Of a stretch of DNA of 64,000 nt, positions 28,144-48,608 are shown piece after piece; the stretch's first letter is position 1; each line of letters opens with the position of its first letter. Made by a program: the position numbers and the translations under genes. The stretch lies in NCBI RefSeq assembly GCF_000024765.1, contig NC_013422.1, positions 1,693,501 to 1,757,500 on the forward strand. The letters run 5' to 3'. The notes beneath the pieces are model-generated. The model saw nothing but the letters and a program-made list of their open reading frames with translations, made no database searches and was not told the origin of the DNA. This stretch comes from Halothiobacillus neapolitanus c2. Its GTDB lineage: Bacteria > Pseudomonadota > Gammaproteobacteria > Halothiobacillales > Halothiobacillaceae.

Positions 28144-29805
28144 TTATGGTTGACTAACTTCAGATCCCAATTTGGCTAGGCGATAACGGAATTGACGTGC
28201 AGTCATACCCAGTATTCGCGCAGCTTGAGCTTGGTTACCCGAAGACTTGCTCATGGCGTCACGGATATTTTCGCTTTCATGTTCGCAGACTCTCATGTAG
28301 CTGCGTTTACCACGACTCACCCGGTTTGACGATGTCCCTGAAAACTTAACCTCCTGTGGAGAATCGTACTCGCGCGCTGAAGTCGTAGGTTCAAGGAATG
28401 GAGCGATATCCAACTTGGTAACGCCTAACTGATCCGTTTGATACATGCTCCGCTCAGTATCCAAAATGTGTTTGATCTGTTCGACATTGATCAATTGTCC
28501 ACTCGCCTTGAGTACAGCTCGCTCGACGACATTCTGAAGTTGGCGGATATTGCCCGGCCAACCGTAGGACTGGAGTTCCTCATGGATACCCTGGGTAAAG
28601 CTGACACTACGGTCATAAAGCTGGGCATAGTGATTGAGGTAATGCTGAGCCAGACGGGTAATATCCTCTTGTCGCTTCCTGAGCGGAGGTAGATATACGG
28701 GAATGACGTTGATCCGATAATACAGATCCAGTCTGAAGCGCCCTTCCTGCAGAGCAACCGCCAGATTGACATGGGTAGCCGTGATCAGTCTGAAATTGAC
28801 ATGTTGCGGCTGATCACTACCGATCGGTTGAACCTGCTTATCCTGAAGCACCCGTAACAATTTCGCCTGAAGATCCAGCGGCATGTCCCCGATTTCGTCC
28901 AGAAATAGCGTGCCTTCGTGTGCCTGCTCAATTTTTCCCTTCTGCCGACGATAAGCACCGGTGAAACTTCCCTTTTCATGGCCGAAAAGCTCCGATTCCA
29001 GCAAAGCTTCCGGGATTGATGCGCAGTTGATGCAGATAAACGGTTTATCTCGACGCTGACTTTCCCGGTGAGCCATTCGTGCAAACATCTCTTTGCCCGT
29101 TCCGGACTCCCCAAGAAGCATGATCGGTGCTTCGCTGTTCTTGACCTGATCAATTTCTTTAACCGCAGACAACAAGGCATGGCTTGAACCGATAATGTTA
29201 TTCGACTCACACATGCGGATGTAACGACCACCATCATGGTCAAGTTGAGATGGTAGGAAACTTACCTGCTGGACCCGTTGCCGCATATTTACTAACACTG
29301 GCCCAGTCATGCTGGAAATGATTCTCAGCAAATCGACATCCTCCGAATAGGACCGCCTTGGATTAGCGCGGCGCTGAACGGATAACACACCGACTACCAG
29401 TCCATCAACATTGATCGGTACGCAAATAAAACCAATCCGGCTCAAGCTACCCTCAATCGGTTCAGCGATCCGCTGAATGAAGATCGATTCATCCAACACG
29501 TCGGTTACCAGCGATACTTGACCTGTTCGCCAGGCAAAACCGGTGAGTCCCTGATCAAATGGTACGGTATATTTACCCAACGCAATCTGCTCTTCAGGAA
29601 GCCCATAACTGTAGGCGACCTCAAGCACTCGAAGGGAGTAATTCGGCAACATGATCCGGCCGTAGTGAAGACTGGACCAACGAGAGAGCAAACTCAGCAA
29701 ACTCATGAGTTTATAACCAGACGATGCTGTTGATTTACTCATGAGTCTGGAAACCTCAAGCAATAGTGCAGAATTGATTTCCCGCGTACCTGTGATTTCT
29801 TTCAT
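28144..29805 (-). CDS. NifA-like sigma-54-dependent activator (GAF-AAA-Fis)
   Basis: A 553-residue enhancer-binding protein. A GAF domain fills residues about 20-180. The AAA+ domain follows with Walker A GESGTGKE and a sigma-54 contact loop reading GSFTGA in place of the more common GAFTGA. Its Walker B is GTLFLDEIGDMP. A Fis-type helix-turn-helix closes the protein (GNQAQAARILGMTARQFRYRLAKLG, close to NifA C-termini). No receiver domain is present, so it is controlled through GAF rather than by phosphorylation. ATG at 29805 has GAGGA five bases upstream. No nif genes are nearby; two sigma-54 promoters lie between urtA and fmdA 17 kb away, which it may serve. Confidence 0.88.
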   Translation of the reverse strand: MKEITGTREINSALLLEVSRLMSKSTASSGYKLMSLLSLLSRWSSLHYGRIMLPNYSLRVLEVAYSYGLPEEQIALGKYTVPFDQGLTGFAWRTGQVSLVTDVLDESIFIQRIAEPIEGSLSRIGFICVPINVDGLVVGVLSVQRRANPRRSYSEDVDLLRIISSMTGPVLVNMRQRVQQVSFLPSQLDHDGGRYIRMCESNNIIGSSHALLSAVKEIDQVKNSEAPIMLLGESGTGKEMFARMAHRESQRRDKPFICINCASIPEALLESELFGHEKGSFTGAYRRQKGKIEQAHEGTLFLDEIGDMPLDLQAKLLRVLQDKQVQPIGSDQPQHVNFRLITATHVNLAVALQEGRFRLDLYYRINVIPVYLPPLRKRQEDITRLAQHYLNHYAQLYDRSVSFTQGIHEELQSYGWPGNIRQLQNVVERAVLKASGQLINVEQIKHILDTERSMYQTDQLGVTKLDIAPFLEPTTSAREYDSPQEVKFSGTSSNRVSRGKRSYMRVCEHESENIRDAMSKSSGNQAQAARILGMTARQFRYRLAKLGSEVSQP

Positions 29806-30514
29806 AGCATCCTCAACTAATTGCAATACATCCGGAAATTTTTCAGTGGTTATCTAGTTTTCTTGACTGGTGATGAAAATCAGGACGAAACTGACTGCGT
29901 TAATTAAGTGTTAATAAACAAACTCAACAATGAGTAGGTATTTAACTAATTAAACTAAACAGCGAAAATACGCCGCAACTAGAAACCTCTGAAAAATGAT
30001 CCCGTGGCATGACAGCAGTGTCATTTAGCCTCTGGGATAAGACTACATGCCACACCCGTCCACTGATATACGTCATACAACGGATGCGGCATCACATCGT
30101 TTTCTGCACGCCCCTAGTTTTGTTTAATTGGGTTTATTTCAAGCGAAACATTAGATACGCGAACTACGTCAAATTACGTATAGTGGAAGCTATCTATCAT
30201 TCGCATTATAGTAGACCCACCTCAAAGGCACTGTCTGCTTGGACGCTCAACCATCCAGATAGTTATGTCCAATTACATGGCATCGGGAAAAATCCAGATA
30301 ATTTGATTATCGACATAAAGGCGGGCACCTCGAAAAATGTCTAGAGCATGTTCGAGTTCATGGAGCCGCGGGCTTACGCCAACTGAACGTATACGAGCAC
30401 GCGACACCGCAATCGAACAGCGCAGTCTGTTATTCGGGGTGCAAAGGCAGTAGATCAACACTTTTCTGACAATGAAACATTCATGCACGCCTGTCAGCTC
30501 AACGCGAGAACTCC
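29806..30514. other. Long divergent intergenic region
   Basis: About 709 AT-rich bases between the NifA-like gene and the transporter-kinase gene. It holds the upstream regions of both. An inverted repeat ATGACA-GCAG-TGTCAT lies at 30008-30023; its TGTCA arm recalls the AATTGTCA boxes near fmdA. I see no -24/-12 sigma-54 promoter, tRNA or convincing gene; an open frame at 30009-30344 has no ribosome site or recognisable product. Confidence 0.45.
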
Positions 30515-33500
30515 ATGAAAAAGCTGCGCCGGATTCCGAGCCTAGATGCCGTCCCGCCTCGACAGGTCAAGAAAATCCGGCGGGACTATAAATCCTGGGT
30601 TGCCAATGAAACACTCGAAGACTACGCGCTTAGGTACACTGCACGTGAATTTCGCAAGTGGTCGATCTTCCGCGTCGCCAACACCGCGCTCGGTGCCATT
30701 TCCTTTCTGGCACTGGAGGCCATCGGCGCAGCGCTGACCGTGGCATATGGATTTATCAATACATTCTGGGCCTGCCTTGCCGCCTCGATCCTGATTTTTC
30801 TGACCAGTCTGCCGATCGCGCACTATGGCGCGAAATACAACCTCGATATGGATCTGCTCACCCGTGGAGCGGGTTTCGGTTACATCGGCTCCACCATCAC
30901 GTCACTTATCTACGCGTCATTCACTTTCATATTCTTTGCTATTGAAGCCGCCATCATGGCGCAAGCGCTGAACCTGTATCTGGGCCTTCCGATGACACCC
31001 TCGTATCTGTTCAGCGCCCTGATTGTCCTGCCATTGGTCGGTTACGGCATCACATTGATCAGCCGACTGCAGCTGTGGACCCAACCCATTTGGCTAATCC
31101 TGTTGTTCCTGCCCTACATCAGCATCTTATGGAAAGATCCGACCATTTTCGACCGACTCTTATCTTTTGGCGGTAATCTCGGGATACCCGAGTTCAATCT
31201 TCTGGCATTCGGCGCTGCCACCAGCGTGGTTCTGGCCCTGATTGCACAAATCGGGGAACAGGTCGACTACCTCCGCTTCATGCCACAAAAAGATAAATCC
31301 AATAAACACGCTTGGAATTTCGGAGTACTCCTGGCTGGTCCCGGCTGGATTATTTTAGGCATGTTCAAACTTCTGGCCGGTGGTTTGCTGGCCTATCTCG
31401 CGCTCAGCAGCGGGATCAGTCTGGCTCAAGCCGTTCAACCCGCAGTTTTTTATGAGCTCGGATTCAGTTATGTCTTCAACTCACCAGCAGTCGTGTTGTT
31501 CGCGGCAACCCTCTTCGTGGTGATCTCCCAAATCAAGATCAATGTCACCAATGCGTATGCGGGTTCGCTTGCGTGGTCGAATTTCTTCGCCCGCCTGACG
31601 CATAGCCACCCGGGCCGAGTCGTCTGGCTTATATTCAACGTACTGATTGCCGTGATGCTGATGGAATTCGGAGTTTTCGAGGCGCTGGGGAATGTGCTTG
31701 GCATTTACTCGAATGTCGCGATCAGTTGGGTTGGTGCCATCGTTGCCGATCTGATCATCAACAAGCCCCTCGGCCTGAGCCCACCGGGAATCGAGTTCAA
31801 ACGTGCCTACCTTTACGATATCAATCCAGTTGGTATCGGCGCATTGCTGATCGCCTCTACGCTGTCCATCATTGCGTTCAGTGGCTGGTTTGGGCCTTGG
31901 GCCGAAGCTTTTTCTGCCTTCATTGCATTAGGCAGTGCCTTTATCACGGCACCGCTGATTGCCTGGCTGACCAAGGGCCGGTATTACATCGCCCGCACAG
32001 CCGATGAGTTGGGTGATAAGAAGATACTTCGGTGCGTTGTCTGCGAGAATGACTACGAAACGGAAGACATGGCCATGTGCCCGGCCTATCGGGGAACCAT
32101 CTGTTCGCTTTGCTGCACTCTGGACGCGCGTTGCCACGATATGTGTCGACCCAAGGCCGGCTTACTGGAACAGTTCACCGCCATGCTGAGTCGCCTTCTG
32201 CCCAAGACCCTCGCAAGGCATATCAACACACGCATTGGCTATTACCTGCTGCTGATTCTGATTTCAGGACTGGCTTTGGGTACAACACTGCTCTTTTTCT
32301 ACTTGCAGCAACTCAGCAGCATGCCCCCGGACGACCTGGCGATTTTCAGGATGCTGCTGATCAAGCTTTTTGTCGCCCTTTTCGCACTGACCGCTATTGG
32401 TGGCTGGTGGCTGGCGCTCACCCTGGAAAGCCGATACGTCGCTCAGGACGAGTCCAACCGACAGACCCATCTACTGATGAACGAAATCGAGGCGCACCTG
32501 AAAACCGATGTGCAACTGCAGAAGGCCATCAAGGCCGCCGAGAGCGCCAACCAGGCCAAAAGCCGCTATATGGCAGGGATCAGCCACGAACTTCGCACCC
32601 CGCTGAACTGTATTCTGGGTTACGCCCAGATCGTTGAACACGATCCCGCCGTACCGCGACAACGCCGCGAGGAGATGAAGGTTATCCGCCGCAGTGGAGA
32701 GCACCTGATTTCGCTGATCAATGGCCTGCTGGATATGGCAAAAATCGAAGCAGGAAAACTAACCATTGAACCCGAAGAGGTACATTTCCCACAGTTTGTC
32801 GCCCAATTGGCGGACATGTTTCGGCTACAGGCTCAGGAGAAGCGCATCCAGTTCAACTTCGAAGTGGTAGACGAACTTCCACCCGTGGTGCGCGTCGACA
32901 AGAAACGACTGGGGCAAATCCTCATCAATATTCTGGGCAACGCAATCAAGTTCACCGAACGAGGACACGTGACCTTCCGGATTTCTTACCGCAGCGAATT
33001 GGCGCGTTTTGAAATCGAGGACACGGGAATCGGCATTACAGAAAGTGATCGCAAGCGAATTTTCCTCCCCTTCGAACGCGGCAGTAATGCAACTGGCAAT
33101 GCCGCCAGCGCAGGCTTGGGCCTGACAATCGCCAGTATGTTGGCCACGCTGATGGGCGGTGAGTTGACTGTACATGAGCGCGAGGGTGGGGGCAGCCGAT
33201 TTCAGTTGCGTCTATTGTTGACCGCCGTTCGCAACCCGCGTCCCCAACCCATGGACACGCCGTCCAATATATTGGGTTACCGCGGGCCGAAAAGGCGCAT
33301 ACTCATCGTTGATGACCAACAAAGCGATCGGGAATTTCTGCACAGCGTGCTTTCGGCTCTTGGATTTTTTGTAATTCAAGCAGAATCGGGCATTACCGGC
33401 CTGCGTCAGGCCGCGGCACATCCACCGGACTTGATCATCTTGGATATCAACATGACGGATATCGATGGCTGGGAAACTGCACGACTGCTACGCGCCAACG

Positions 33501-34051
33501 GCATTTCCATGGCACCGATCCTGATCGTCTCCGCCGACGTCCTCGACCGGGGCAAACCAAACATGGAAGACATCGGCATTGATGACTTCATTGCCAAACC
33601 AGTCGAGATCCCTTTATTGCTACAGCGTATCCACGACAAACTGCACCTCAACTGGATCACGAGTGGCCAGGAACAATTAACCGCTCAGGCCACGGCAACC
33701 CAGCAACAATTGGCGGAACCTGCCCCGAAAATTGCGCCCACGGCCCCCGCACCGACTTCGACGGACCCAGCAGATACGGCACCCGACGCAAACGTTGAGG
33801 GAGAGACGCTGGGCGGCAGTAATCAACCAAACGTGGACGCCCTGCCCGATGCAGCCGCACTCAACGCTCTGCGCGAGCTGGGCACAATGGGGTACGTTCA
33901 GGGCATTCTTGAACAGCTCGACGAGTTGGAACAATTGCGCCCTGATCTGGCGGAGATGGTCCGCCCACTGCGAACCTCCATTCAACAATTCCACCTCGGT
34001 GAGTACATGCGACTACTCAATCAAATAGAAGCCAAGCATGAACCTACATAA
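30515..34051 (+). CDS. NCS1 permease-like sensor: transporter-histidine kinase-receiver hybrid
   Basis: A 1178-residue fusion. Residues about 1-490 form a 12-helix NCS1 (cytosine/purine permease-like) domain. Eight cysteines then lie between 507 and 544 (CVVC ... CSLCC ... CHDMC), a likely metal or redox site. Two more membrane helices sit near 555-640. The kinase core has the phospho-accepting His691 in SHELRTPLN, with HATPase boxes NILGNAIKF and DTGIGI. A receiver has Asp933 and phospho-acceptor Asp977. An Ala/Pro-rich linker and a short helical tail end the protein. The last bases overlap a LuxR-type regulator gene. Known relatives of this design fuse solute-transporter folds to kinases (CbrA-type). 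The substrate is probably an amide, urea or nucleobase-like compound, from context only. Confidence 0.88.
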   Translation: MKKLRRIPSLDAVPPRQVKKIRRDYKSWVANETLEDYALRYTAREFRKWSIFRVANTALGAISFLALEAIGAALTVAYGFINTFWACLAASILIFLTSLPIAHYGAKYNLDMDLLTRGAGFGYIGSTITSLIYASFTFIFFAIEAAIMAQALNLYLGLPMTPSYLFSALIVLPLVGYGITLISRLQLWTQPIWLILLFLPYISILWKDPTIFDRLLSFGGNLGIPEFNLLAFGAATSVVLALIAQIGEQVDYLRFMPQKDKSNKHAWNFGVLLAGPGWIILGMFKLLAGGLLAYLALSSGISLAQAVQPAVFYELGFSYVFNSPAVVLFAATLFVVISQIKINVTNAYAGSLAWSNFFARLTHSHPGRVVWLIFNVLIAVMLMEFGVFEALGNVLGIYSNVAISWVGAIVADLIINKPLGLSPPGIEFKRAYLYDINPVGIGALLIASTLSIIAFSGWFGPWAEAFSAFIALGSAFITAPLIAWLTKGRYYIARTADELGDKKILRCVVCENDYETEDMAMCPAYRGTICSLCCTLDARCHDMCRPKAGLLEQFTAMLSRLLPKTLARHINTRIGYYLLLILISGLALGTTLLFFYLQQLSSMPPDDLAIFRMLLIKLFVALFALTAIGGWWLALTLESRYVAQDESNRQTHLLMNEIEAHLKTDVQLQKAIKAAESANQAKSRYMAGISHELRTPLNCILGYAQIVEHDPAVPRQRREEMKVIRRSGEHLISLINGLLDMAKIEAGKLTIEPEEVHFPQFVAQLADMFRLQAQEKRIQFNFEVVDELPPVVRVDKKRLGQILINILGNAIKFTERGHVTFRISYRSELARFEIEDTGIGITESDRKRIFLPFERGSNATGNAASAGLGLTIASMLATLMGGELTVHEREGGGSRFQLRLLLTAVRNPRPQPMDTPSNILGYRGPKRRILIVDDQQSDREFLHSVLSALGFFVIQAESGITGLRQAAAHPPDLIILDINMTDIDGWETARLLRANGISMAPILIVSADVLDRGKPNMEDIGIDDFIAKPVEIPLLLQRIHDKLHLNWITSGQEQLTAQATATQQQLAEPAPKIAPTAPAPTSTDPADTAPDANVEGETLGGSNQPNVDALPDAAALNALRELGTMGYVQGILEQLDELEQLRPDLAEMVRPLRTSIQQFHLGEYMRLLNQIEAKHEPT

Positions 34052-34916
34052 GGATGAGCGCGGCACCATTCTGTTGGTAGACGATGCGCCGGACAATCTG
34101 CGCGTGCTTCACGATGCGCTGCAGCAGCAAGGCTATCGGGTGCTGGTTTCCACCGATGGACAAAGCGCACTGGATAGCGTGCAGCTCATGCCACCCGATG
34201 TCATCATTCTTGATGCACGCATGCCCGGCATCGACGGTTTTGAAACCTGCAAACGGCTAAAAAATGATCTGACCACTCGTGATATCCCGGTCATTTTTAT
34301 GACAGGCCTTAGTGACACCGAGTACATCGTTCAGGGTTTTCAGGCTGGTGGTGTCGATTACGTAACCAAACCGGTCGTGATAGAAGAGCTATTGGTGCGC
34401 ATCACCACCCATATGCAGCGGGCGCAGCTGGTCACGCACACCCGCTCTGCAATCGATTCAGCCGGTCGAGCTATTCTGGCCTTCGACTCGGGCTATGCGA
34501 TTACCTGGGCCACCCCTTTGGCTCAGCGGTTGGTTCAATCCGTGGTCGACGCGCGAGATCAGTTGCCACCCCCCGTTCGCCAATGGCTTAAAGACAAGGA
34601 TGCCGATCCTTCTTTCCCGCTCTGGCATCAGGGTGAGCGCCTGTTGTTTACTCGGATCGAACCCGGTCTGTTGTCCATCCAACGCCATGCGGCACAGGCT
34701 GAACCGGAAGCACTAGCCAGGATATTCCAGCTGACGGCGCGCGAGGCGGAAAGCCTCTACTGGGTCGCCCTTGGAAAGACCAATAAGGAAATCGGTGAGA
34801 TCCTGCAGATCAGCCCACGCACGGTCAACAAACACTTGGAGCACGTGTTCGAAAAGCTGGGAGTCGAAACCCGGACGGCTGCAGCGGCTCTGGTGTTAAG
34901 CCGACCCTCTGGCTGA
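34038..34916 (+). CDS. LuxR/NarL-type response regulator
   Basis: A 292-residue regulator. The receiver (residues 9-125) has the acidic pair in LLVDDAPDN, the phospho-acceptor in ILDARMPGIDG, Thr in FMTGLS and Lys in VTKPV. A middle segment (130-220) resembles no domain I can name. A LuxR helix-turn-helix follows: LTAREAESLYWVALGKTNKEIG then ISPRTVNKHLEHVFEKLGV. Its ATG lies 14 bases inside the end of the transporter-kinase gene, so the two form a coupled sensor-regulator pair. It converges with the VWA gene across only eight bases. Confidence 0.92.
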   Translation: MNLHKDERGTILLVDDAPDNLRVLHDALQQQGYRVLVSTDGQSALDSVQLMPPDVIILDARMPGIDGFETCKRLKNDLTTRDIPVIFMTGLSDTEYIVQGFQAGGVDYVTKPVVIEELLVRITTHMQRAQLVTHTRSAIDSAGRAILAFDSGYAITWATPLAQRLVQSVVDARDQLPPPVRQWLKDKDADPSFPLWHQGERLLFTRIEPGLLSIQRHAAQAEPEALARIFQLTAREAESLYWVALGKTNKEIGEILQISPRTVNKHLEHVFEKLGVETRTAAAALVLSRPSG

Positions 34917-38060: not shown

Positions 38061-39056
38061 TCATGCCGCGCCATACTTTCGTGCGGGTTTGGGAAAGCCG
38101 CAGGACGTGCCGTCCGTAATGGCAACCTCGTCTTCCCAAGGCAATCGGTATTTACCAGCTACCAGGTCCTGCATGAAGGTGTATGGACAATCCCGCGCCC
38201 CGCCGGCCACGGCGACATAACCGCGATGCCCGAGCTGGTAGATGTTGTTCTCTACCCCCCACAGTCGCCGTGCTTCACGCGCCAGGGCCGGACGGACCTC
38301 CGCCGTGATGATCTCGTCCGGCACACCGCTGCCTTCGACCAGAGTTGTGCCGTCGAAATTGACCACCATCCCCTCGCCCATTGAGTTGAATGTCCCATCC
38401 GTGCCCGCCATGCACACGCTCGCGGTGTACATGAGGTTGCAGAAGGCGTTCGCCTGATTGGTGATCTTCCAGGAATGACGGATCGGTGCGGTGTAGCCAG
38501 CCGTGCGCAACATGATATCGGCACCGCGATAGGCGCATTCCCGCGCCATTTCGGGGAACATCCCGTCGTGACAGATAATCAAAGCCAGGGTGCTGCCGTT
38601 CGGCCCCTCGCACACGGGAATGCCCATGTCACCCGGCTCCCAGGGTTCAACCGGCACCCACGGATGAAGCTTGCGATACTTCAGGCGGATCACGCCTTCG
38701 GCGTCGATGATCAGCCCCGTGTTGTAGGGGTAGCCATCTGGGTTGTATTCCATGATGGAGAAACAACCCCATACCGCGTGCTCCACACAAGCAACGCGCA
38801 GCGCAGCAACCTCGGGCCCATCCATGCGCACCATGATTTCGGGGTTGGTATCCATCGACAGTCCATGGAGCACATACTCCGGGAACACCACAAGATCAAG
38901 GGTGGGCATCCCGTTCTTTGCCTTGGCCACCATGGCACAGACTTTCTCCGTCTGGCGAGTCAGATCCGCTGGCGTTTTCACGACAGGAAGTTGCAATTGC
39001 ACCAGCCCCAGAACAACGCCATCCGGAGATTTGTTCAAACCACCAAGACCACTCAT
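38061..39056 (-). CDS. amiF: Formamidase AmiF (nitrilase superfamily)
   Basis: A 331-residue Cys-Glu-Lys hydrolase that turns formamide into formate and ammonia. The triad is Glu in VFPEYVLHG, Lys in KYRKLHPW and Cys in IICHDGMFPE. It runs end to end with Helicobacter pylori AmiF, including the start GxxNKxxDG, YTASV, and the end AAGKYRLPWED. A GGGGAGGTCTC ribosome site precedes the ATG. It lies downstream of the NCS1 permease and upstream of the hydrolase gene. This is the second formamide-hydrolysing enzyme in the window, the other being FmdA of an unrelated fold. Confidence 0.93.
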   Translation of the reverse strand: MSGLGGLNKSPDGVVLGLVQLQLPVVKTPADLTRQTEKVCAMVAKAKNGMPTLDLVVFPEYVLHGLSMDTNPEIMVRMDGPEVAALRVACVEHAVWGCFSIMEYNPDGYPYNTGLIIDAEGVIRLKYRKLHPWVPVEPWEPGDMGIPVCEGPNGSTLALIICHDGMFPEMARECAYRGADIMLRTAGYTAPIRHSWKITNQANAFCNLMYTASVCMAGTDGTFNSMGEGMVVNFDGTTLVEGSGVPDEIITAEVRPALAREARRLWGVENNIYQLGHRGYVAVAGGARDCPYTFMQDLVAGKYRLPWEDEVAITDGTSCGFPKPARKYGAA

Positions 39057-39176: not shown

Positions 39177-40547
39177 TCAGGCCACCACGCTTTTCTTGGC
39201 GACAGAACTCATCAGAATCCAGTAAACCAAACCTCCAACGAGCGCGGAGGAAATGGCGGTAGAAAGTCCAGGGAATACCTTCTCGACAATAAAGGCGACC
39301 ACAGACCCTGCCGCCCATGCGATGAAGGCTAGCGGACGCCAATCAGCATCGACCTGCGAGTTGGGACGCTTTAAGTACTGGTCGATGATGATGATGGCAC
39401 CGATTGGCGGCACGATGATGCCCAGCAGGCTCAGCCACTGGATGAAGAAGGCCCAGACGTTGGTCGCCGCGATCAGGATGCCGATGGCACCCAGCACAAC
39501 CGCCATCAGTCGCATTTCGCTGCCCAGAATTCGTGACCAGCCGGTAGATGCGTTGTACAGGCAGTGCGAACACACGGAACCGAGGTTAGCCAGCAGGAAG
39601 ATGAAGGCGATCACCATCAGGACGCCGGAACCGCTGGCCATCATGTAGCCGAACATGTTGTCCTGGCCGAATGGGTTGGCATTCGGTACGGCGAGCGCTG
39701 CAGTCATGATTCCGCCCACCAGCATCGCGATCATGTTTGCGAACGGGAAGGCGCTGAAGGTCGCCACGAGGGAGTTCTTCTTGTCCTTGGCCCAGCGGTT
39801 GAAGTCTGGCGTTACGGTACCTGCATCAACGAACAGGGCAATCACCATGGTCAAACCGACGCCGAACGGCAGCAGATTTGTCGGATCGTTCCCGTGGTAG
39901 GACATGATTGCATCGAAGGTTGTCTTGCTGGACGCATCGATCACCACCCACAACCCGAGCACGACAAACAATGGCGCGGAAATAATACCGATCCAATGAA
40001 GACCGCGAACACCAACAAAGGTGATGCCGATGAACAGCAGCCCCGCGATGATGGTCATGACGACGTAGTTGATGTGATAGGCACTGCTGATCAGGGAACC
40101 GGCAATACCTGTTTGCACGGCAAACCAACCCAGCAGCAGGGTCGAAAGCAGTCCTGACGCCAAAGCGTAACCCTTTCGACCGAACACGATGCTGGCGAGC
40201 AGCGCGAAATTGAATCCTTTCTTGGTACCCAGCAGGCCCAGCAGACCAACATATCCGAACATGATCAGATTACCGATCAGCATGGCCCACAAGGCACTGG
40301 TGAAGCCCATGCCGAGCACAAGGAGCGAACCGGTCATCGCCCCGGTAATGATCATCGGAAAACCCATCCAGACCATGCTCACTGAGAACATGCTGCGACG
40401 GGCAGACATGGGTACGGCGGTATGCTCGTATTCCTTGCCGAGGGTATGCTCAAGTTCTTCTTCGATGTGCTTGATCTCTTCGACCAGATACTCACCCTTG
40501 CTATGTTCGCCGCTTTTTTTCAGGCTGGCATCGTGTTCTTGGCTCAT
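39177..40547 (-). CDS. NCS1 family (CodB-like) permease
   Basis: A 456-residue inner-membrane transporter with about 12 helices. The N-terminal 50 residues are charged (KKSGEHSKGEYLVEEIKHIEEELEHT split over the region) and cytosolic. The first helix region MVWMGFPMIITGAMTGSLL fits the cytosine permease branch of NCS1. The ATG at 40547 has AAGGA upstream; an open frame extends further but has no better start. It sits between amiE and amiF, so amides or urea-like compounds are likely substrates. It is in the same superfamily as the sensor half of the transporter-kinase. Confidence 0.88.
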   Translation of the reverse strand: MSQEHDASLKKSGEHSKGEYLVEEIKHIEEELEHTLGKEYEHTAVPMSARRSMFSVSMVWMGFPMIITGAMTGSLLVLGMGFTSALWAMLIGNLIMFGYVGLLGLLGTKKGFNFALLASIVFGRKGYALASGLLSTLLLGWFAVQTGIAGSLISSAYHINYVVMTIIAGLLFIGITFVGVRGLHWIGIISAPLFVVLGLWVVIDASSKTTFDAIMSYHGNDPTNLLPFGVGLTMVIALFVDAGTVTPDFNRWAKDKKNSLVATFSAFPFANMIAMLVGGIMTAALAVPNANPFGQDNMFGYMMASGSGVLMVIAFIFLLANLGSVCSHCLYNASTGWSRILGSEMRLMAVVLGAIGILIAATNVWAFFIQWLSLLGIIVPPIGAIIIIDQYLKRPNSQVDADWRPLAFIAWAAGSVVAFIVEKVFPGLSTAISSALVGGLVYWILMSSVAKKSVVA

Positions 40548-40641
40548 TGGATTATTCCTTGACTTAATTCTTGTTCGATTCAGGATGCTTGGTAACAGCA
40601 ACTTCGCACCCGCCATTGTTCAAGTGTCGGAGTGGATTGCC

Positions 40642-41685
40642 CTATTTGTGGCCGCCCATATCCTGCTCGTTCGGAATGCCCTGGATCGGGCATTCGGCCG
40701 TGCCGGGCGTCGAGCGCGTGATCTTCTCGACGTTTTCACGCGCCTTGGCTGGATCGGTAATCCAGGTCTTGTAGAACTCATAGGGGCATTCGCCCGCGCC
40801 GTTCATGTCGTCGCCAGAATTGATCATGCCGGTGTAGCCACGGTGCAGCAGCTTGTAGAGGTGGTTCTGGCTCTGCCAGTTTTTGCGGGCGTCGCGAATC
40901 TGGGAAACGGACAATTCGGCGTACTGGATGCCGTATTCCTCCTCGCCGCACTCACCGAGTGTGCGACCGTCGAAGCCGACGATGGCCGAGTGGCCGAAGT
41001 AGGAATACACACCATCGAAGCCTGCCGCATTGGCGACGGCAACATAGGTGTTGTTCATCCAGGCCATGGCTTTTGCGACCATGACCTGCTGGTCCTTGGC
41101 CGGGTACATGTAGCCCTGGCAACGGACGATCAGCTCGGCGCCTTTCATGGCACAATCACGCCAGATTTCAGGATAGTTGCCGTCGTCGCAGATGATCAGG
41201 CTGACCATCATGCCCTTGGGGCCTTCGCTCACGTAGGTCTTGCCGCCGGGATACCAGCCTTCGATCGGGCACCAGGGCATGATCTTGCGGTACTTCTGCA
41301 CAATTTCACCCTGATCGTTGATCAGGATCAGCGTGTTGTACGGCGCCTTGTTCGGGTGCTCTTCATGACGCTCGCCCGTCAGGGAGAACACGCCCCAGGT
41401 CTTCGCCTTACGGCAGGCGGCAGAAAAGATTTCGGTCTCTTCGCCCGGAACGGTTGAGGCTGTTTCGTACATTTCTTTCGGGTCGTACATGATCCCGTGG
41501 GTGCTGTACTCGGGGAAAATCACAAGGTCCATGCCCGGCAGGCCCTGCTTCATGCCCACGACCATGTCCGCGATCTTGCGGGCATTGTCCAGAACCTCGG
41601 CCTTGGTATGCAGGCGTGGCATCTTGTAGTTGACGACAGCGACGCCGACGGTATCTGCACTGGATGAAATATCACCATGACGCAT
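40642..41685 (-). CDS. amiE: Aliphatic amidase AmiE
   Basis: A 347-residue nitrilase-superfamily enzyme that hydrolyses short aliphatic amides (acetamide, propionamide) to the acid and ammonia. The protein starts [20 protein letters not shown], as do the Pseudomonas and Helicobacter AmiE proteins. The triad is Glu in FPEYSTHG, Lys in QKYRKIMPW and Cys in [16 protein letters not shown] lies nine bases before the ATG. It follows urtE by 140 bases and is followed by the permease and amiF. Confidence 0.96.
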
Positions 41686-41825
41686 AAGTTGTATCCTCTG
41701 TAAAATTGAAAACAAAAACGGTTAACGACCCCACTCAACCGTGTGGGATCAAACAAACCATCCTTGGAGAATCGGGTAACGCCACAGACGCGGGTAGCGA
41801 TCTGCGGCCTGTCATTTACAACGGG

Positions 41826-42515
41826 TTAAACCGACAGATACTTGCTGATCTGAGCCGTATCGACGTTCTCCCGCAGGTCCTCATGAATGAATGAACCCTT
41901 GTCGATCACGATGATCCGGTCGGCCACCGCCATCGTGAAACTGAGCACCTGCTCGGAGACGATGATGGTGATCTCCCGCATCTTGCGGATCTCGTTCAGG
42001 ACATTGGCAATGTCCTTGATGATGGATGGCTGAATACCCTCAGTGGGTTCATCCAGCAGCAGCACTTTCGGGTTTGAAACCAGTGCCCGCGCGATGGCCA
42101 GCTGTTGCTGCTGACCGCCGGACAGGTTGCCGCCCTTGCGCTGGCGCATGTCGAACAGCACAGGGAACAGCGCGAAAATTTCGTCTGGGATCGTTTTGTC
42201 CTTGACGGTTTCAAGACCGGTCTGGATGTTTTCCAGTACGGTCATGCTGGGGAAAATCATCCGTCCCTGGGGCACGTAGGCAATGCCGTTTGCAACCCGC
42301 TGATAGGAGGTCATCTTCGTCACATCGACGCCATCGACCTTGATCGAGCCGCCGCCTACAGGCAACACACCAATCAGAGATTTGAACAAGGTGGTTTTAC
42401 CCATCCCGTTGCGTCCCATCACGGCAATGGTCTCGTTCTTCGAGGCGATCAGATCCACACCATGGATGGCTTCACTTTCGCCGTAACTCACGGAGAGTTT
42501 GGATACTTCAAGCAT
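41826..42515 (-). CDS. urtE: Urea/short-chain amide ABC transporter ATPase UrtE
   Basis: A 229-residue ATP-binding subunit of the hydrophobic amino acid/urea-type ABC family (LivF-like). Walker A is GRNGMGKTTLF, the signature is NLSGGQQQQLAIARAL, and Walker B is VLLLDEPTEGIQPSI. It is the last of the five urt genes and lies 15 bases downstream of urtD. With UrtD it powers import by UrtB and UrtC. Confidence 0.95.
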   Translation of the reverse strand: MLEVSKLSVSYGESEAIHGVDLIASKNETIAVMGRNGMGKTTLFKSLIGVLPVGGGSIKVDGVDVTKMTSYQRVANGIAYVPQGRMIFPSMTVLENIQTGLETVKDKTIPDEIFALFPVLFDMRQRKGGNLSGGQQQQLAIARALVSNPKVLLLDEPTEGIQPSIIKDIANVLNEIRKMREITIIVSEQVLSFTMAVADRIIVIDKGSFIHEDLRENVDTAQISKYLSV

Positions 42516-42530
42516 GTCATGTCTCCCCGA

Positions 42531-43274
42531 TTAATGGCCTAGATAAACTTCGATAACGCGCTCATCCGACTGCACCTGTTCCATGGTTCCCTGTGACAAG
42601 ATCTTGCCTTGGTGAAGTACGGTGACCTTATGCGCAATGCGTTTGACGAATTCCATGTCGTGTTCGATCACGATGACCGAGCGGTCCTGGCAGATCCGGT
42701 TCAGCAAATCGGCGGTTTGTTCGCGCTCCCGCACGCTCATGCCGGCGACGGGTTCGTCCAGCATCAGGAGTTCAGGGTCCTGAATGAGCAACATGCCGAT
42801 CTCCAGCCATTGCTTTTGGCCATGGCTCAGAAGGCCAGCCTCCTTATCCAGCAGGTCCGAGAGATAAATCATGTCCGCCACTTCGTGGATGCGTTGATCC
42901 ACATCGGCCGTGCGCTTGAACATCAGAGCGCCGAAGACAGTTCGGCCTCTTGGAAACGAAATTTCCAGATTCTCGAAAACGGACAGGTTTTCATAAATGG
43001 AAGGGGTCTGGAATTTACGACCGACACCAGCCCGAACAATCTGGTGTTCGGCCATTTTGGTCAGTTCCATGCCCTTGAACTTGATGGAACCGGAGGTAGC
43101 TTTGGTCTTGCCGCAGATCATGTCCAGAACGGTGGTCTTCCCTGCCCCGTTGGGGCCGATCACGACCCGCAACTCGTTCTTGTCCACGTACAGATTCAAG
43201 CCGTCGACCGCCTTGAATCCATCGAAAGATACCGTCAGGTCTTCGATAGCCAGCACGAAATCGGTGTTGCTCAT
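42531..43274 (-). CDS. urtD: Urea/short-chain amide ABC transporter ATPase UrtD
   Basis: A 247-residue LivG-like ATPase. Walker A is GPNGAGKTTVLD, the signature region is LLSHGQKQWLEIGMLL (SHGQK instead of SGGQ, usual for UrtD), and Walker B is LLMLDEPVAGMS. Its ATG overlaps the end of urtC (ATGA). It pairs with UrtE as a heterodimer. Confidence 0.95.
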   Translation of the reverse strand: MSNTDFVLAIEDLTVSFDGFKAVDGLNLYVDKNELRVVIGPNGAGKTTVLDMICGKTKATSGSIKFKGMELTKMAEHQIVRAGVGRKFQTPSIYENLSVFENLEISFPRGRTVFGALMFKRTADVDQRIHEVADMIYLSDLLDKEAGLLSHGQKQWLEIGMLLIQDPELLMLDEPVAGMSVREREQTADLLNRICQDRSVIVIEHDMEFVKRIAHKVTVLHQGKILSQGTMEQVQSDERVIEVYLGH

Positions 43275-44425
43275 TCCACTGCCTCCTTCTTATCACTCAA
43301 CGCAGCCGGCTTAACAGCACTCGACTTGCGGGTGAGCTTGTCGAGGAAACGATCCACACTCGGTTTCAGGTAGGTCTGATACAGACCGGCCAAACCGTTG
43401 GGGAAAAACATCACCACTCCGATGAACAGGCCGCCCATCAGAAAGAGCCACAATGCAGGGAATGTTTCCGAGAACGCCGACTTGCCGTAGTTGACCAGCA
43501 AAGCGCCGTACACGGCACCGATCAGAGATAGACGACCACCGACGGCGGCAAGAATGACCATTTCGATGGAAGGCACGATGCCGACGAAGGTGGGTGACAT
43601 GAAACCGACCTGAAGCGTGAACATGGCACCACCGATGGCCGAAATGATCGCCGAGAGACTGAAGACGAAAATCTTGAAGTTCGACACGTCGTAGCCGGAG
43701 AATCGGACCCGATCCTCCTTATCCCGCATTGCGAGCAACAGCCGCCCGAGTTTCGACGACAAAACATAGCGGCAGAGCAAAATCACACCGACGAGCAACA
43801 CCCCATTGATGTAATAGAGTATGTACTTCGCCGAATCGGTATTGATGTTCCAGCCATGCAGTGTCTTCAAATCGGTAATGCCATTGATACCGCCGGTATA
43901 GCCTTGCTGACCGACAACCAGAATCGTCAGGATGGCCGCAATCGCCTGGGTGATGATCGCGAAATACACCCCGCCCACGCGCCGCTTGAACATGGCCGCG
44001 CCAACAATATAGGCAAGCACCGCAGGCACGACGAAAATCGCCAGGATCGTGAACGGCAGGCTATGGAAGGGTTCCCAGAAAAGGGGCAACTGGGTGATCT
44101 GGTTCCAGTCCATGAAATCTGGGATACCCGGTGTCGTTTGTCTTGCGGTACTTGCCGGATCGGAAGCTTCCAGCTTCAGATACATAGCCATGCAATAACC
44201 ACCCACACCGAAGAAAATACCCTGACCCAGGCTGAGAATGCCCGCGTGCCCCCAGAGCATGACCAAACTGACCGCAGCAAAAGCATAGGTCAGGTACTTG
44301 CCCACGTTGTTGAGGCGGTAAATATCCAAAAATAGCGGCAAAATGATAAAAATCAGCAAGGCGAGCAACAGGAGCCCGATCGCGCCTTGCCGTCCACCCA
44401 ACCATCTGTCATAGAAAGTATTCAT
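43271..44425 (-). CDS. urtC: Urea/short-chain amide ABC transporter permease UrtC
   Basis: A 384-residue LivM-like permease with about ten membrane segments. The region MLWGHAGILSLGQGIFFGVGGY is the family signature. A loop of about 40 residues near 95-130 (ASDPASTARQTTPGIPDFMD) is typical of UrtC. It lies ten bases downstream of urtB and overlaps urtD by four bases. Confidence 0.95.
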   Translation of the reverse strand: MNTFYDRWLGGRQGAIGLLLLALLIFIILPLFLDIYRLNNVGKYLTYAFAAVSLVMLWGHAGILSLGQGIFFGVGGYCMAMYLKLEASDPASTARQTTPGIPDFMDWNQITQLPLFWEPFHSLPFTILAIFVVPAVLAYIVGAAMFKRRVGGVYFAIITQAIAAILTILVVGQQGYTGGINGITDLKTLHGWNINTDSAKYILYYINGVLLVGVILLCRYVLSSKLGRLLLAMRDKEDRVRFSGYDVSNFKIFVFSLSAIISAIGGAMFTLQVGFMSPTFVGIVPSIEMVILAAVGGRLSLIGAVYGALLVNYGKSAFSETFPALWLFLMGGLFIGVVMFFPNGLAGLYQTYLKPSVDRFLDKLTRKSSAVKPAALSDKKEAVE

Positions 44426-44435
44426 GTACGTGTCC

Positions 44436-45362
44436 TTATTTTCTGACCTTGCTTGAGAACAGACCTTCGGGCCGAAGCATGAGAATGACGATGATCGCCA
44501 ACAGGGTGACCACTTTGCCCATGGCGTTCGTCATGAAGAAAGTAAGAATGGACTGGGCCTGCGAAATGGTGAACGCGGAAGCGACCGTACCCAGCAGACT
44601 GGCTGCCCCACCGAAGACAACCACCAGGAACGTATCGACGATATAAGTCGATCCGCTGGTCGGGCCAGTTGACGCAATCGTCGTGAATGCCGCACCGGCA
44701 ATTCCCGCAACACCACATCCAACGGCAAAGGTCATGCGGTCAACCTTTTGAGTGTTGATCCCCACTGCACCGGCCATCATGCGGTTCTGTGTAGTGGCGC
44801 GGACCTTCAATCCCCAGCGTGATTTATAAAGCGCGAGAATGACGATTGCCGTAACCACGAGCGTGATGAGCATCACAAAGAGGCCATTGATGGGAATATC
44901 AATGTTTGGCGTCGGTGCCCAGGACCCCATCAACCAGTCGGGCAGTGTCGGGCTAACCTCACGGCCACCAAACACCGAACGGAAGATCTGCTGCATGATC
45001 AGGCTGAGACCCCACGTGGCTAACAGCGTATCAAGCGGTCGCCTATATAAATGACGGATGAGCAGGAATTCGACGAAATACCCCACCGTAAAGGCAATGA
45101 CAAAGGCAGCGATGATCGCCACCACGAAGTAATAAGCCATGAATCCAGGAAAGTACTGTTCGGTAATTTTAGAGATGACATAGATTGAGTAGGCCCCAAT
45201 CGTCATGAACTCTCCGTGAGCCATATTGATGACGCCCATCTGGCCGAAGATGATCGCCAGACCCAAGGCCATCAACAGCAGTACGCTGAAGAGGCTTAAG
45301 CCGGAGAACCCCTGCATCACCAGGATGGACCCTAAATCAGAGAATGAGTATCCAAACAACAT
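44436..45362 (-). CDS. urtB: Urea/short-chain amide ABC transporter permease UrtB
   Basis: A 308-residue LivH-like permease with about eight membrane segments. MALGLAIIFGQMGVINMAHGEFM is the diagnostic stretch. The start at 45362 is chosen because AGGAG lies eight bases before it; an ATG nine codons upstream has none. Unlike many UrtB proteins, it lacks a large N-terminal periplasmic extension. It is the second gene of the urt set. Confidence 0.94.
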   Translation of the reverse strand: MLFGYSFSDLGSILVMQGFSGLSLFSVLLLMALGLAIIFGQMGVINMAHGEFMTIGAYSIYVISKITEQYFPGFMAYYFVVAIIAAFVIAFTVGYFVEFLLIRHLYRRPLDTLLATWGLSLIMQQIFRSVFGGREVSPTLPDWLMGSWAPTPNIDIPINGLFVMLITLVVTAIVILALYKSRWGLKVRATTQNRMMAGAVGINTQKVDRMTFAVGCGVAGIAGAAFTTIASTGPTSGSTYIVDTFLVVVFGGAASLLGTVASAFTISQAQSILTFFMTNAMGKVVTLLAIIVILMLRPEGLFSSKVRK

Positions 45363-45454
45363 GGAAGTTGCTCCTGTCCAAAATTGCATAGGGAGTGGGA
45401 AGCGCCCTGATCAGATGAAGCTAACCAGAACGCCACTCACCCGGCCGCCTTTGC

Positions 45455-46699
45455 TCAGTAACCTTTCGGGAACGGATTCGGCATGATGTACGGTGAGGTG
45501 TAGACAATGTCTGCCTGACCATCGTCACGCCATTCGCCGATTCGCAGACGCGTCTTCAGGTGATGGTTTGGCTCGAGGTAAACCATGCCTTCAGGAGCGT
45601 TGAAGGTTATCGTGCCGCTTTCTTCAGCCTTCACAACCTTGTCCGTATCGAAGCTACCCGCTTTCTCGACAGCAGCCTTCCATAACCACGGGCCCTCATA
45701 CGCAGCCTGAGTTACATCACCGATCGGCGCATCAGCACCCCAGCGTTTCTTGAACGCAGCAACGAAAGCCTTGTTTTCCGGTGTATCCAGAGACTGGAAG
45801 TACTTCATCGCAGAGTAGAAGCCTTTGAGGTTTTCGCCACCGATGCCCTGGGCTTCGTCTTCAGTGACAGACAAGGTCAGCAATGTCTGCTTGCTACCGT
45901 TAATACCGGCCGCTTTGAGTTGCTTGAACCAGGCAACGTTTGAACCGCCAACCACAGCGGCGTAGATGACATCCGGCTTTTTCAGACGGATCTTGTTGAT
46001 GGTTGAACCGAACTGGGTGCTGCCCAACGCGGCGTATTCCTCACCCACCACCTTGCCGTGCAATACAGTTTCAATGTACTTGCGCGCCAGTTTCATCGTC
46101 GTACGTGGCCAGATGTAGTCAGAACCGATCAGATAGAAGGTCTTGGCGTTCTTGTTCTTGGCTACCCAATCCAAGCCAGCAAATACCTGTTGAGTCGCCT
46201 CCTGGCCCGTATAGACCACATTCTTGGACTGCTCCAGACCTTCGTAGAAAGTCGGGTAATACAACAGGCCGTTATCACGCTCCAGCACGGGAAGAACTGC
46301 CTTACGGGATGCTGATGTCCAGCAACCAAAAATGGCGGCCACATGGTTTTCTTCCAACAACTTCTTGGCTTTCTCGGCGAAGGTAGGCCAGTCACTGGCG
46401 CCATCTTCCTGGATAAATTTGATCTGGCGCCCTAGGACGCCGCCTTGCGCATTGATCTGCTCAATGGCCAGTTTCTCGGCTTCCTGAGCACCGGTTTCAC
46501 TAATTGCCATGGTGCCTGTCAGTGAATGGAGGATACCTACGGTCACCGTATCGTCAGTCACTGCAAGACCTGTTGTGTTGACTTCAGCGGTCGGGGGCCC
46601 GGCATAAACGGCAGATGCAATTAATACTGACGAAAGTGTCAGACCCTGAATCGCAGCTCTCACACTGCGCCAAACTTTAGAATCGGTCTTATTAATCAT
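45455..46699 (-). CDS. urtA: Urea/short-chain amide-binding protein UrtA
   Basis: A 414-residue periplasmic type I binding protein. A signal peptide (positively charged start, then GLTLSSVLIASAVYA) is followed by the Leu/Ile/Val-binding-protein fold. VTVGILHSLTGTMAISET and FGCWTSASRKAVLPV are typical of UrtA/FmdD. AAGGAG sits five bases before the ATG. The gene is headed by a sigma-54 promoter at 46777-46793. The same family serves as FmdD, an amide-binding protein, in Methylophilus, and there is no urease nearby, so amide or urea specificity is open. Confidence 0.95.
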   Translation of the reverse strand: MINKTDSKVWRSVRAAIQGLTLSSVLIASAVYAGPPTAEVNTTGLAVTDDTVTVGILHSLTGTMAISETGAQEAEKLAIEQINAQGGVLGRQIKFIQEDGASDWPTFAEKAKKLLEENHVAAIFGCWTSASRKAVLPVLERDNGLLYYPTFYEGLEQSKNVVYTGQEATQQVFAGLDWVAKNKNAKTFYLIGSDYIWPRTTMKLARKYIETVLHGKVVGEEYAALGSTQFGSTINKIRLKKPDVIYAAVVGGSNVAWFKQLKAAGINGSKQTLLTLSVTEDEAQGIGGENLKGFYSAMKYFQSLDTPENKAFVAAFKKRWGADAPIGDVTQAAYEGPWLWKAAVEKAGSFDTDKVVKAEESGTITFNAPEGMVYLEPNHHLKTRLRIGEWRDDGQADIVYTSPYIMPNPFPKGY

Positions 46700-46776
46700 G
46701 GTTGCTCCTTAAAATCTCATCTGGACGTTTTTCCTTGCAACAAGGACTAAAGGGAAAATCCCTCGCATGAACACAA

Positions 46777-46793
46777 CTGCAGGAAGCGTGCCA
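46777..46793 (-). promoter_or_regulatory. Sigma-54 (-24/-12) promoter of urtA
   Basis: Read on the minus strand, CTGGCACGCTTCCTGCAG has GG at -24 and GC at -12 with exactly ten bases between, close to the TGGCACG-N4-TTGCW consensus. Transcription would start near 46767, giving a leader of about 68 bases before the urtA ATG. Confidence 0.85.
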
Positions 46794-47027
46794 GAAAAAA
46801 TCAGCAATTAATTCGCATGAAAATAAATACATGAACCATATAAATCCGGACGATAAACCCCCATATGAATTATTAACAAAACAGAAATAAAACAATCGGA
46901 CATTCAATGGGTTGCACCGAGATATTCGATTAAATGATCACCAGTCCCGAACAGGATTCAGCCGCTTGACGCCCGAATCACCGGGCCAAAAATCTGCACC
47001 GAAAATGCAATATATATATATTTTTCA

Positions 47028-47058
47028 GTATGTTATAAAAAGTAATGGCGTAACATGC
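47028..47058. repeat. Imperfect inverted repeat in urtA-fmdA region
   Basis: GTATGTTA (47028-47035) faces TAACATGC (47051-47058) across 15 bases, next to a short AT run. It may be a regulator site; nothing more can be said. Confidence 0.35.
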
Positions 47059-47080
47059 GTCTAGGGCAATGGCAACGATC

Positions 47081-47131
47081 AATTGTCACGTTACATTTCA
47101 TGACAATTTGAATTGTCACAATAAATTGTCA
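47081..47131. promoter_or_regulatory. Cluster of four AATTGTCA half-sites (candidate upstream activating sequence)
   Basis: AATTGTCA occurs at 47081-47088, inverted at 47101-47108, and again at 47111-47118 and 47124-47131. The middle two form a perfect 18-bp palindrome, TGACAATTTGAATTGTCA. The cluster lies about 80-130 bases upstream of the fmdA sigma-54 promoter and about 290-340 from that of urtA, the usual range for enhancer-binding proteins. The bound protein is unproven; the NifA-like activator of this window is the obvious candidate. Confidence 0.7.
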
Positions 47132-47208
47132 TGGCAAAAACGTTACATTCGCAAACAAATGGAATGCAATCACCTGTAAATAACACCAAAACAAAGGTAA
47201 AACATAAG

Positions 47209-47226
47209 TTGGCACACGTAATGCAT
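47209..47226 (+). promoter_or_regulatory. Sigma-54 (-24/-12) promoter of fmdA
   Basis: GTTGGCACACGTAATGCA has GG and GC separated by exactly ten bases and a TTGGCAC -24 element. It diverges from the urtA promoter. Transcription would start near 47236, about 137 bases before the fmdA ATG. Confidence 0.85.
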
Positions 47227-47372
47227 TAGGCCAGTAAGCCCAAAATGCATTATTCCAAATTTAAATAGGAACCAGGCAACAGAAGGCAATCATTTCAATA
47301 CGTCAATTAACGTAATTGGCTTATTGATCTACCGGCGGGCCATGCCCAAATAAGATCAAGGGGATTAGTACA

Positions 47373-48608
47373 ATGGCAAAAAAACTGATAGAAATTGATT
47401 TTTCGCAACCACCAGAAGCGCACGATTGCATTCATAATCGTTGGCACCCGGACATCCCCATGTACGCATGGGTAAAGCCGGGTGACGACTTCGTTCTTGA
47501 GTGCATGGACTGGACCGGCGGCCAGATCAACAACAATAACTCTGCCGACGATGTCCGTGACGTGGATTTGACTAAGGTCCACTATTTAAGTGGACCCATC
47601 GGTGTGGATGGAGCCGAACCGGGGGACTTGTTGGTCGTTGATATCCTCGACATCGGCACACTGGAACAATTCCAGTGGGGGTTCAATGGCATATTCGCCA
47701 GAGAAAACGGTGGTGGCTTCCTGACCGAACATTACCCGGATGCGCGAAAATCAATCTGGGATTTCAACGGCATTTATACATCCTCTCGCCACGTACCCGG
47801 TGTGAACTTCGCGGGAATCATGCATCCGGGTCTGATCGGTTGCCTTCCCTCCAGAGAATTGCTGAACGAATGGAACAAGCGAGAAGGTGCCCTGATCGCG
47901 ACCGATCCTGAACGTGTTCCTCCGCTCGCAGCACCGCCCTGTGCTGGCACCGCTCACATGGGCCAACTCAAAGGGGATAAGGCGAAAGCAGCCGCGCTCG
48001 AAGGTGCGCGCACGGTTCCGCCCCGTGAACACGGCGGCAACTGCGACATCAAGGATCTCACCAAAGGCTCTCGTGTCTTTTTCCCTGTTTATGTGAAGGG
48101 TGCCGGTCTTTCGATGGGCGATCTACACTTCTCGCAGGGCGATGGAGAAATCACCTTTTGTGGTGCCATCGAGATGGCCGGCTGGATTCATATCCGAGTC
48201 AGCATCATCAAGGACGGTGTTGCCAAATACGCTGTCAAGAACCCAATTTTCAAGCCGAGCCCACTACAGCCAAACTACCAGAATCACCTGATTTTCGAAG
48301 GGATTTCCGTAGATGAATCAGGCAAGCAGCATTACCTGGATGCGCATGTTTCATACCGCCAGGCCTGCCTGAACGCGATCGAATACCTCAAGAAATTCGG
48401 CTACACCGGAGCCCAGGCCTATTCGATCCTCGGTACGGCTCCTGTCCAAGGTCACATCAGCGGCATCGTCGACATTCCGAACGTGTGCGCAACACTCTTC
48501 CTGCCAACAGAAATCTTCAATTTCAACATTGATCCTTGCGCCGAAGGCCCGACCAAGTACATCAAGGATAACGACGATGTGCCGGTTTCCTACTGGGCTG
48601 ATAAATAA
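47373..48608 (+). CDS. fmdA: Formamidase FmdA (acetamidase/formamidase family)
   Basis: A 411-residue zinc-dependent amidase of the FmdA_AmdA family, which hydrolyses formamide to formate and ammonia in the cytoplasm. Family stretches include HNRWHPDIPMYAWVKPGDDF near the N-terminus, GINHPG-type GIMHPGLIGCLPS, PPREHGGNCDIKDL and LHFSQGDGEITFCGAIE. Length matches Methylophilus FmdA (407). AAGGGGATT precedes the ATG. It is divergent from urtA and followed by fmdB and an outer-membrane protein gene, as in the fmd cluster of Methylophilus methylotrophus. Confidence 0.96.
   Translation: MAKKLIEIDFSQPPEAHDCIHNRWHPDIPMYAWVKPGDDFVLECMDWTGGQINNNNSADDVRDVDLTKVHYLSGPIGVDGAEPGDLLVVDILDIGTLEQFQWGFNGIFARENGGGFLTEHYPDARKSIWDFNGIYTSSRHVPGVNFAGIMHPGLIGCLPSRELLNEWNKREGALIATDPERVPPLAAPPCAGTAHMGQLKGDKAKAAALEGARTVPPREHGGNCDIKDLTKGSRVFFPVYVKGAGLSMGDLHFSQGDGEITFCGAIEMAGWIHIRVSIIKDGVAKYAVKNPIFKPSPLQPNYQNHLIFEGISVDESGKQHYLDAHVSYRQACLNAIEYLKKFGYTGAQAYSILGTAPVQGHISGIVDIPNVCATLFLPTEIFNFNIDPCAEGPTKYIKDNDDVPVSYWADK

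Follow-up and report, generated by a model that had tools for sequence, protein, structure and literature searches.

A candidate bidirectional sigma-54 control region for amide-nitrogen genes in Halothiobacillus neapolitanus and related gammaproteobacteria

The intergenic gap between urtA and fmdA very probably carries, judging from its sequence, two candidate sigma-54-dependent promoters (46778-46793 and 47210-47225), and we propose, with a probability of roughly 0.8, that the gap is a sigma-54 control region that works in both directions and serves amide-nitrogen acquisition, opened by the NifA-like activator encoded at 28144-29805 through a shared group of half-sites at 47081-47131. The window, that is, the whole 64-kb stretch analysed, is C1:1693501-1757500 of a complete genome of 2,582,886 bases, and the gap itself spans 673 bases (46700-47372) and holds both promoters and the boxes. 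The arrangement is real and conserved and seems so far undescribed, with the mechanism of each of its parts being a familiar one. The genes and control elements are as follows:

38061-39056, minus strand: CN_hydrolase/nitrilase-type amidase (profile matches), probably co-transcribed with the next gene
39177-40616, minus strand: NCS1-family permease (profile matches), probably co-transcribed with the amidase gene at 38061-39056
40642-41715, minus strand: amiE, aliphatic amidase (NF009802, 724.7 bits), probably in the urt operon
41826-45389, minus strand: urtB, urtC, urtD and urtE (TIGR03409, TIGR03408, TIGR03411 and TIGR03410, each above its cut-off)
45455-46699, minus strand: urtA, substrate-binding protein of a urea/amide ABC transporter (TIGR03407, 505.9 bits, above cut-off)
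46778-46793, minus strand: candidate sigma-54 promoter (-24/-12) of the urtABCDE-amiE operon, TGGCACGCTTCCTGCA, an exact TGGCACRN5TGCW, kept before urtA in relatives of the activator (bEBP) type
47081-47131, no strand assigned: shared putative enhancer of four AATTGTCA half-sites, apparently a drifted form of the relatives' TGACAWTGTCA dyad array
47210-47225, plus strand: candidate sigma-54 promoter (-24/-12) of fmdA, TGGCACACGTAATGCA, an exact TGGCACRN5TGCW, kept before fmdA in relatives
47373-48608, plus strand: fmdA, formamidase (NF045496, 760.7 bits, cut-off 500)

The first-pass annotation had assigned these genes to amide/urea uptake and formamidase, and of the two substrates amide is the better supported: no urease alpha gene was found in the genome, so that amides are the likelier cargo, and a urt-ure urea utilisation cluster was rejected as an identity for the locus. 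The same annotation had placed opposite-strand sigma-54 promoters with exact GG-N10-GC spacing before urtA and fmdA, and both were confirmed. They are the sole exact matches to TGGCACRN5TGCW within the window and make up two of the nine found in the whole 2.58-Mb genome, and two exact sites were never obtained in 5000 dinucleotide shuffles of the gap (mean 0.002). The genome also encodes rpoN (PF04552, 229.8 bits).

Between the promoters, AATTGTCA occurs exactly at 47081 (+), 47101 (-), 47111 (+), and 47124 (+), just as first reported, and four copies within 51 bp were found in 0 of 200 window shuffles, where the largest cluster held two; with one mismatch allowed, the box is not over-represented in the window, and what stands out is the clustering of the exact copies. 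Measured to the fmdA promoter the boxes lie at 83-126 bp, and to that of urtA at 293-336 bp, normal for enhancer sites and in line with the enhancer distance originally claimed. The “18-bp perfect palindrome” described there, TGACAATT-TG-AATTGTCA, has perfect 8-bp arms around a 2-bp centre (TG) that is not palindromic; this element occurs once in the genome, other matches carrying three mismatches.

The wider form of the site emerged when the inter-promoter DNA of relatives was read by eye, which gave the 11-bp dyad TGACAWTGTCA. Of 20 inter-promoter regions, 17 contain it exactly, in 24 copies altogether where about zero are expected. These regions usually hold one to three copies of TGACATTGTCA/TGACAATGTCA, near-matches included, together with TGACA/TGTCA half-sites. 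The first-pass annotation had pointed to related genomes for AATTGTCA pairs upstream of urtA/fmdA: the promoter pair is indeed kept there with TGACA/TGTCA sites in between, but the conserved site is TGACAWTGTCA, and exact AATTGTCA is almost absent. In the window the full 11-bp dyad is absent, its best match being 9/11, and the AATTGTCA boxes contain its half-sites; the other Halothiobacillus genome (G007) shows an intermediate state, having a single 10/11 dyad plus the conserved block TTGTCrCGTTACATTTCrTGACA. From this intermediate and the half-sites in the window boxes we infer that AATTGTCA is a local, lineage-specific degenerate form of the wider element, and activator binding to this form is an extrapolation, given that the window has no full dyad. 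In three Halopseudomonas genomes exact TGACAWTGTCA is scarce (3-8 copies) and forms tight groups at the amide cluster only. As for other known elements, NifA-type TGT-N10-ACA sites number zero in the window gap and one in 20 loci vs. 1.84 expected, the IHF consensus has no match in the window gap, and the NorR sites GGT-N7-ACC and GTCA-N3-TGAC number zero in 20 loci, so that membership of the gap in a NorR regulon is not supported.

The relatives were sampled as 80 named loci fetched with FmdA as the query. The promoter pair, one element before each gene, is found in the same urtA/fmdA gap across gammaproteobacteria from Halothiobacillus to Halopseudomonas, and the intergenic DNA of distant loci with the pair is otherwise unrelated by eye. 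Among loci with a visible regulator, the urtA promoter together with the TGACAWTGTCA dyad is present in all 17 that have a cluster-linked ortholog of the activator and in none of the 40 that have a kinase/LuxR-type regulator (Fisher 7e-15, a value that overstates independence because the loci share ancestry, the 17 being related by descent and some perhaps by transfer). The activator-type loci include Thiogranum, Ectothiorhodospiraceae MAGs, Halopseudomonas, Halovibrio, and a Verrucomicrobia-labelled MAG; where one contig ends early (L020), the activator ortholog lies elsewhere in the same genome, at 63% identity. The promoters, the sites, the protein domains, and their co-conservation can be read directly from the DNA. 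A contig labelled Verrucomicrobiaceae (L038) was observed to carry the full gammaproteobacterial arrangement, with an FmdA of 78% identity, by either transfer or misbinning.

The regulator that follows this promoter and dyad combination is the following:

28144-29805, minus strand: NifA-like, apparently dedicated sigma-54 activator (bEBP) of the order GAF, AAA+, Fis-type HTH_8, with cluster-linked orthologs

Its AAA+ domain matches Sigma54_activat (PF00158, 233.7 bits) ahead of the C-terminal HTH_8, and the Walker motifs GESGTGKE and GTLFLDEIGD and the loop GSFTGA are intact, the Walker and G[AS]FTGA motifs being kept as well in the orthologs of the amide-cluster clade. It shares with NifA the same domain order, sigma-54 promoters with upstream sites, and TIGR01817 as the best curated model, but its score of 397.3 bits is below the NifA cut-off of 528.85, its HTH reads GNQAQAARILGMTARQF vs. 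GWVQAKAARLLGITPRQ in NifA, and its predicted sites are TGACAWTGTCA. In a maximum-likelihood tree the amide-cluster activators group in a single supported clade (100/99), and the nif-linked NifA proteins branch elsewhere. An identity as NifA was rejected on the score, the separate clade, the lack of TGT-N10-ACA in the gap, and the genome's having no nifH above cut-off. It counts somewhat against the proposal that in Halothiobacillus the gene stands 17 kb from the promoters, although it belongs to the same gene block, at the opposite end. Thiogranum-type loci have the ortholog upstream of amiE/urtE and convergent with these genes, and in Halopseudomonas it follows fmdA and precedes amiE.

The direction of effect, activator binding, and the effector we infer as follows. 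Sigma-54 RNA polymerase would form closed complexes at the two promoters, and the GAF-AAA+-HTH activator would bind the TGACA/TGTCA half-sites at 47081-47131 and open both by looping and ATP hydrolysis, so raising the UrtABCDE transporter and the AmiE amidase from the urtA promoter and the FmdA formamidase from the opposite one, with its GAF domain probably sensing an amide or nitrogen-status signal.

The genome encodes nine clear bEBPs, and one might suppose that the promoters are real and are driven by NtrC or by a paralogous GAF activator encoded at 2.375 Mb, the NifA-like gene having other targets. Such a reading draws on the exceptions, where promoters are found without a complete cluster activator. 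In Guyparkeria sp. WRN-7 (G020) the cluster is rearranged, with sigma-54 elements before urtA, fmdA, and the permease gene, which has such a promoter of its own, and the regulator beside urtA (L164:6654-7574, minus strand) consists of GAF and HTH_8 with the entire AAA+ domain missing, its GAF part having 53% identity to the window activator; exact TGACAWTGTCA is found nowhere in that genome. In another genome (G062) the promoter pair is present, and both dyads and a close activator ortholog are missing. Because these two keep their promoters without a complete activator or dyads, a different activator can act on such promoters. In one further locus (L057) a sigma-54-like site precedes urtA with no bEBP in view, and another (L055) has no scoring sigma-54 site before fmdA. 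Taken together, these cases say that promoter and activator can come apart in evolution. For the window, we nevertheless consider control by another bEBP unlikely: the gap has no NtrC palindrome GCAC-N5-7-GTGC (one each in 3 of 20 relatives), the TGACA dyads track the cluster-borne bEBP, and the paralog belongs to a separate clade in the tree, one member of which is encoded beside a cyanase cluster.

Two side observations belong with these regulators. The permease and fmdA promoters of Guyparkeria (L164:15340-15458 and 19570-19683) have an identical 16-mer, TGGCACACAAGCTGCT, in common, and the blocks upstream of them, with ACAAAACGTG...CGTTTTGTGAA arms, resemble each other and are perhaps a replacement enhancer. 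The GAF-sigma-54 paralog (L006, genome 2375240-2376799) is about 41% identical to the window activator, and the cyanase-linked member of its clade is encoded beside an ABC transporter and cynS on the Marinobacter plasmid pMAD49a (L159).

The window also holds a second regulatory system, standing head to head with the NifA-like gene, and its predicted sites:

30165-30180, no strand assigned: predicted response-regulator dyad TACGTCAAATTACGTA, one mismatch to TACGTCANNTGACGTA, upstream of the kinase gene and between the kinase and bEBP genes
30515-34051, plus strand: hybrid sensor kinase with an NCS1-permease-like N-terminal part and HisKA-HATPase-receiver, an amide-cluster regulator in other genera
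34038-34916, plus strand: LuxR/NarL-type response regulator (Response_reg plus GerE), the kinase's partner, which accompanies it next to urtA in those relatives whose contig extends that far
47299-47314, no strand assigned: predicted response-regulator dyad TACGTCAATTAACGTA, one mismatch to TACGTCANNTGACGTA, between the fmdA sigma-54 promoter and fmdA

The N-terminal part of the kinase, which we take to be NCS1-like and which has no Pfam match, is 57% identical over residues 20-547 to a stand-alone ORF adjoining the kinase gene in G007. That ORF (L166:4490-6079) lies between the activator and kinase genes, a place where the window has none.

Could this pair control the region, with the AATTGTCA boxes as its sites? 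The 8-2-8 spacing of the boxes resembles that of NarL-family sites, a 7/8-2-7/8 dyad would suit a LuxR-type regulator, and relatives of this window-encoded pair adjoin urtA in the 40 other loci (Halomonas, Alcanivorax, Bordetella, Achromobacter, and others). A 7-2-7 dyad is the usual layout for NarL-family regulators, and most urtA upstream regions of the kinase-type loci do share one; this, though, is TACGTCANNTGACGTA and not TGACA-W-TGTCA, the TGACAWTGTCA dyad is absent from 40 of 40 such loci, and the TACGTCANNTGACGTA dyads of the window lie elsewhere, at exactly two places in 64 kb (30165 and 47299) vs. 0.07 expected at two mismatches. Once this motif of its own had emerged, the LuxR-type regulator was rejected as binder of the AATTGTCA boxes, and control of the region by the pair through them is now very improbable. 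That the promoter matches and boxes arose by chance and have no function is scarcely credible, for although one-mismatch sigma-54 matches in the window are at chance level, the shuffles of the gap, the box clustering, and the cross-genus conservation all speak against it.

The sigma-54 activator may still share its work with the pair. The kinase and response regulator may act also on fmdA through the predicted site at 47299 as a second input, and the position of this site suggests that dual control of fmdA in this species, by sigma-54 activator and response regulator, is plausible. The strength of the TACGTCANNTGACGTA dyads is their position, since genome-wide, at two mismatches, there is no enrichment over a reversed control; the dyad at 30165 is identical in G007, and that at 47299 has no conserved counterpart there. 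The description of the sigma-54 regulon as self-contained is therefore undercut, since this rival pair lies in the same window with its dyads at 30165 and 47299, the latter being its own predicted site beside fmdA. More tentatively, and at somewhat less than even odds, the amide cluster may be wired in two interchangeable ways across bacteria, either by sigma-54/bEBP with TGACAWTGTCA or by transporter-kinase/LuxR with TACGTCANNTGACGTA, with Halothiobacillus having both, head to head and converging on fmdA in the window's species, as a regulator-swap intermediate or an AND/OR gate, in which latter case the response regulator would act inside the sigma-54 transcript leader of fmdA.

Among known systems, the kinase-type clusters of Halomonas, Alcanivorax, and Bordetella have the same structural genes (urtABCDE, fmdA, and often amiE), but no sigma-54 promoter pair and no TGACA dyads, and mostly TACGTCANNTGACGTA before urtA. 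NitA, the Fis-family sigma-54 regulator of the nit1C cyanide/nitrile cluster (PMC11049912), likewise serves one neighbouring cluster that handles a small C-N compound, but with other enzymes and another layout. The fmdCABDEF genes of Methylophilus methylotrophus also join a formamidase to short-chain amide/urea uptake by an ABC transporter and are induced by formamide or urea and repressed by ammonia (PMC10781810); their regulator is merely “putative” in that review, where the word sigma is absent. In the literature searched, with subscription journals mostly outside its scope, no description of the regulon was found, which agrees with the original impression that a sigma-54 amide regulon of this form is undescribed.

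In summary, a clade of NifA-like activators, best matched among curated models by the nitrogen-fixation regulator, gains a DNA site and a regulon that it likely targets, and the comparison suggests that in a whole operon pair a transporter-kinase two-component system can take the place of a sigma-54 activator. The co-evolution of promoters and activators can be followed here in a natural series, with both regulators in Halothiobacillus, one of them in Halopseudomonas, the other in Halomonas, and an activator lacking its AAA+ domain in Guyparkeria.
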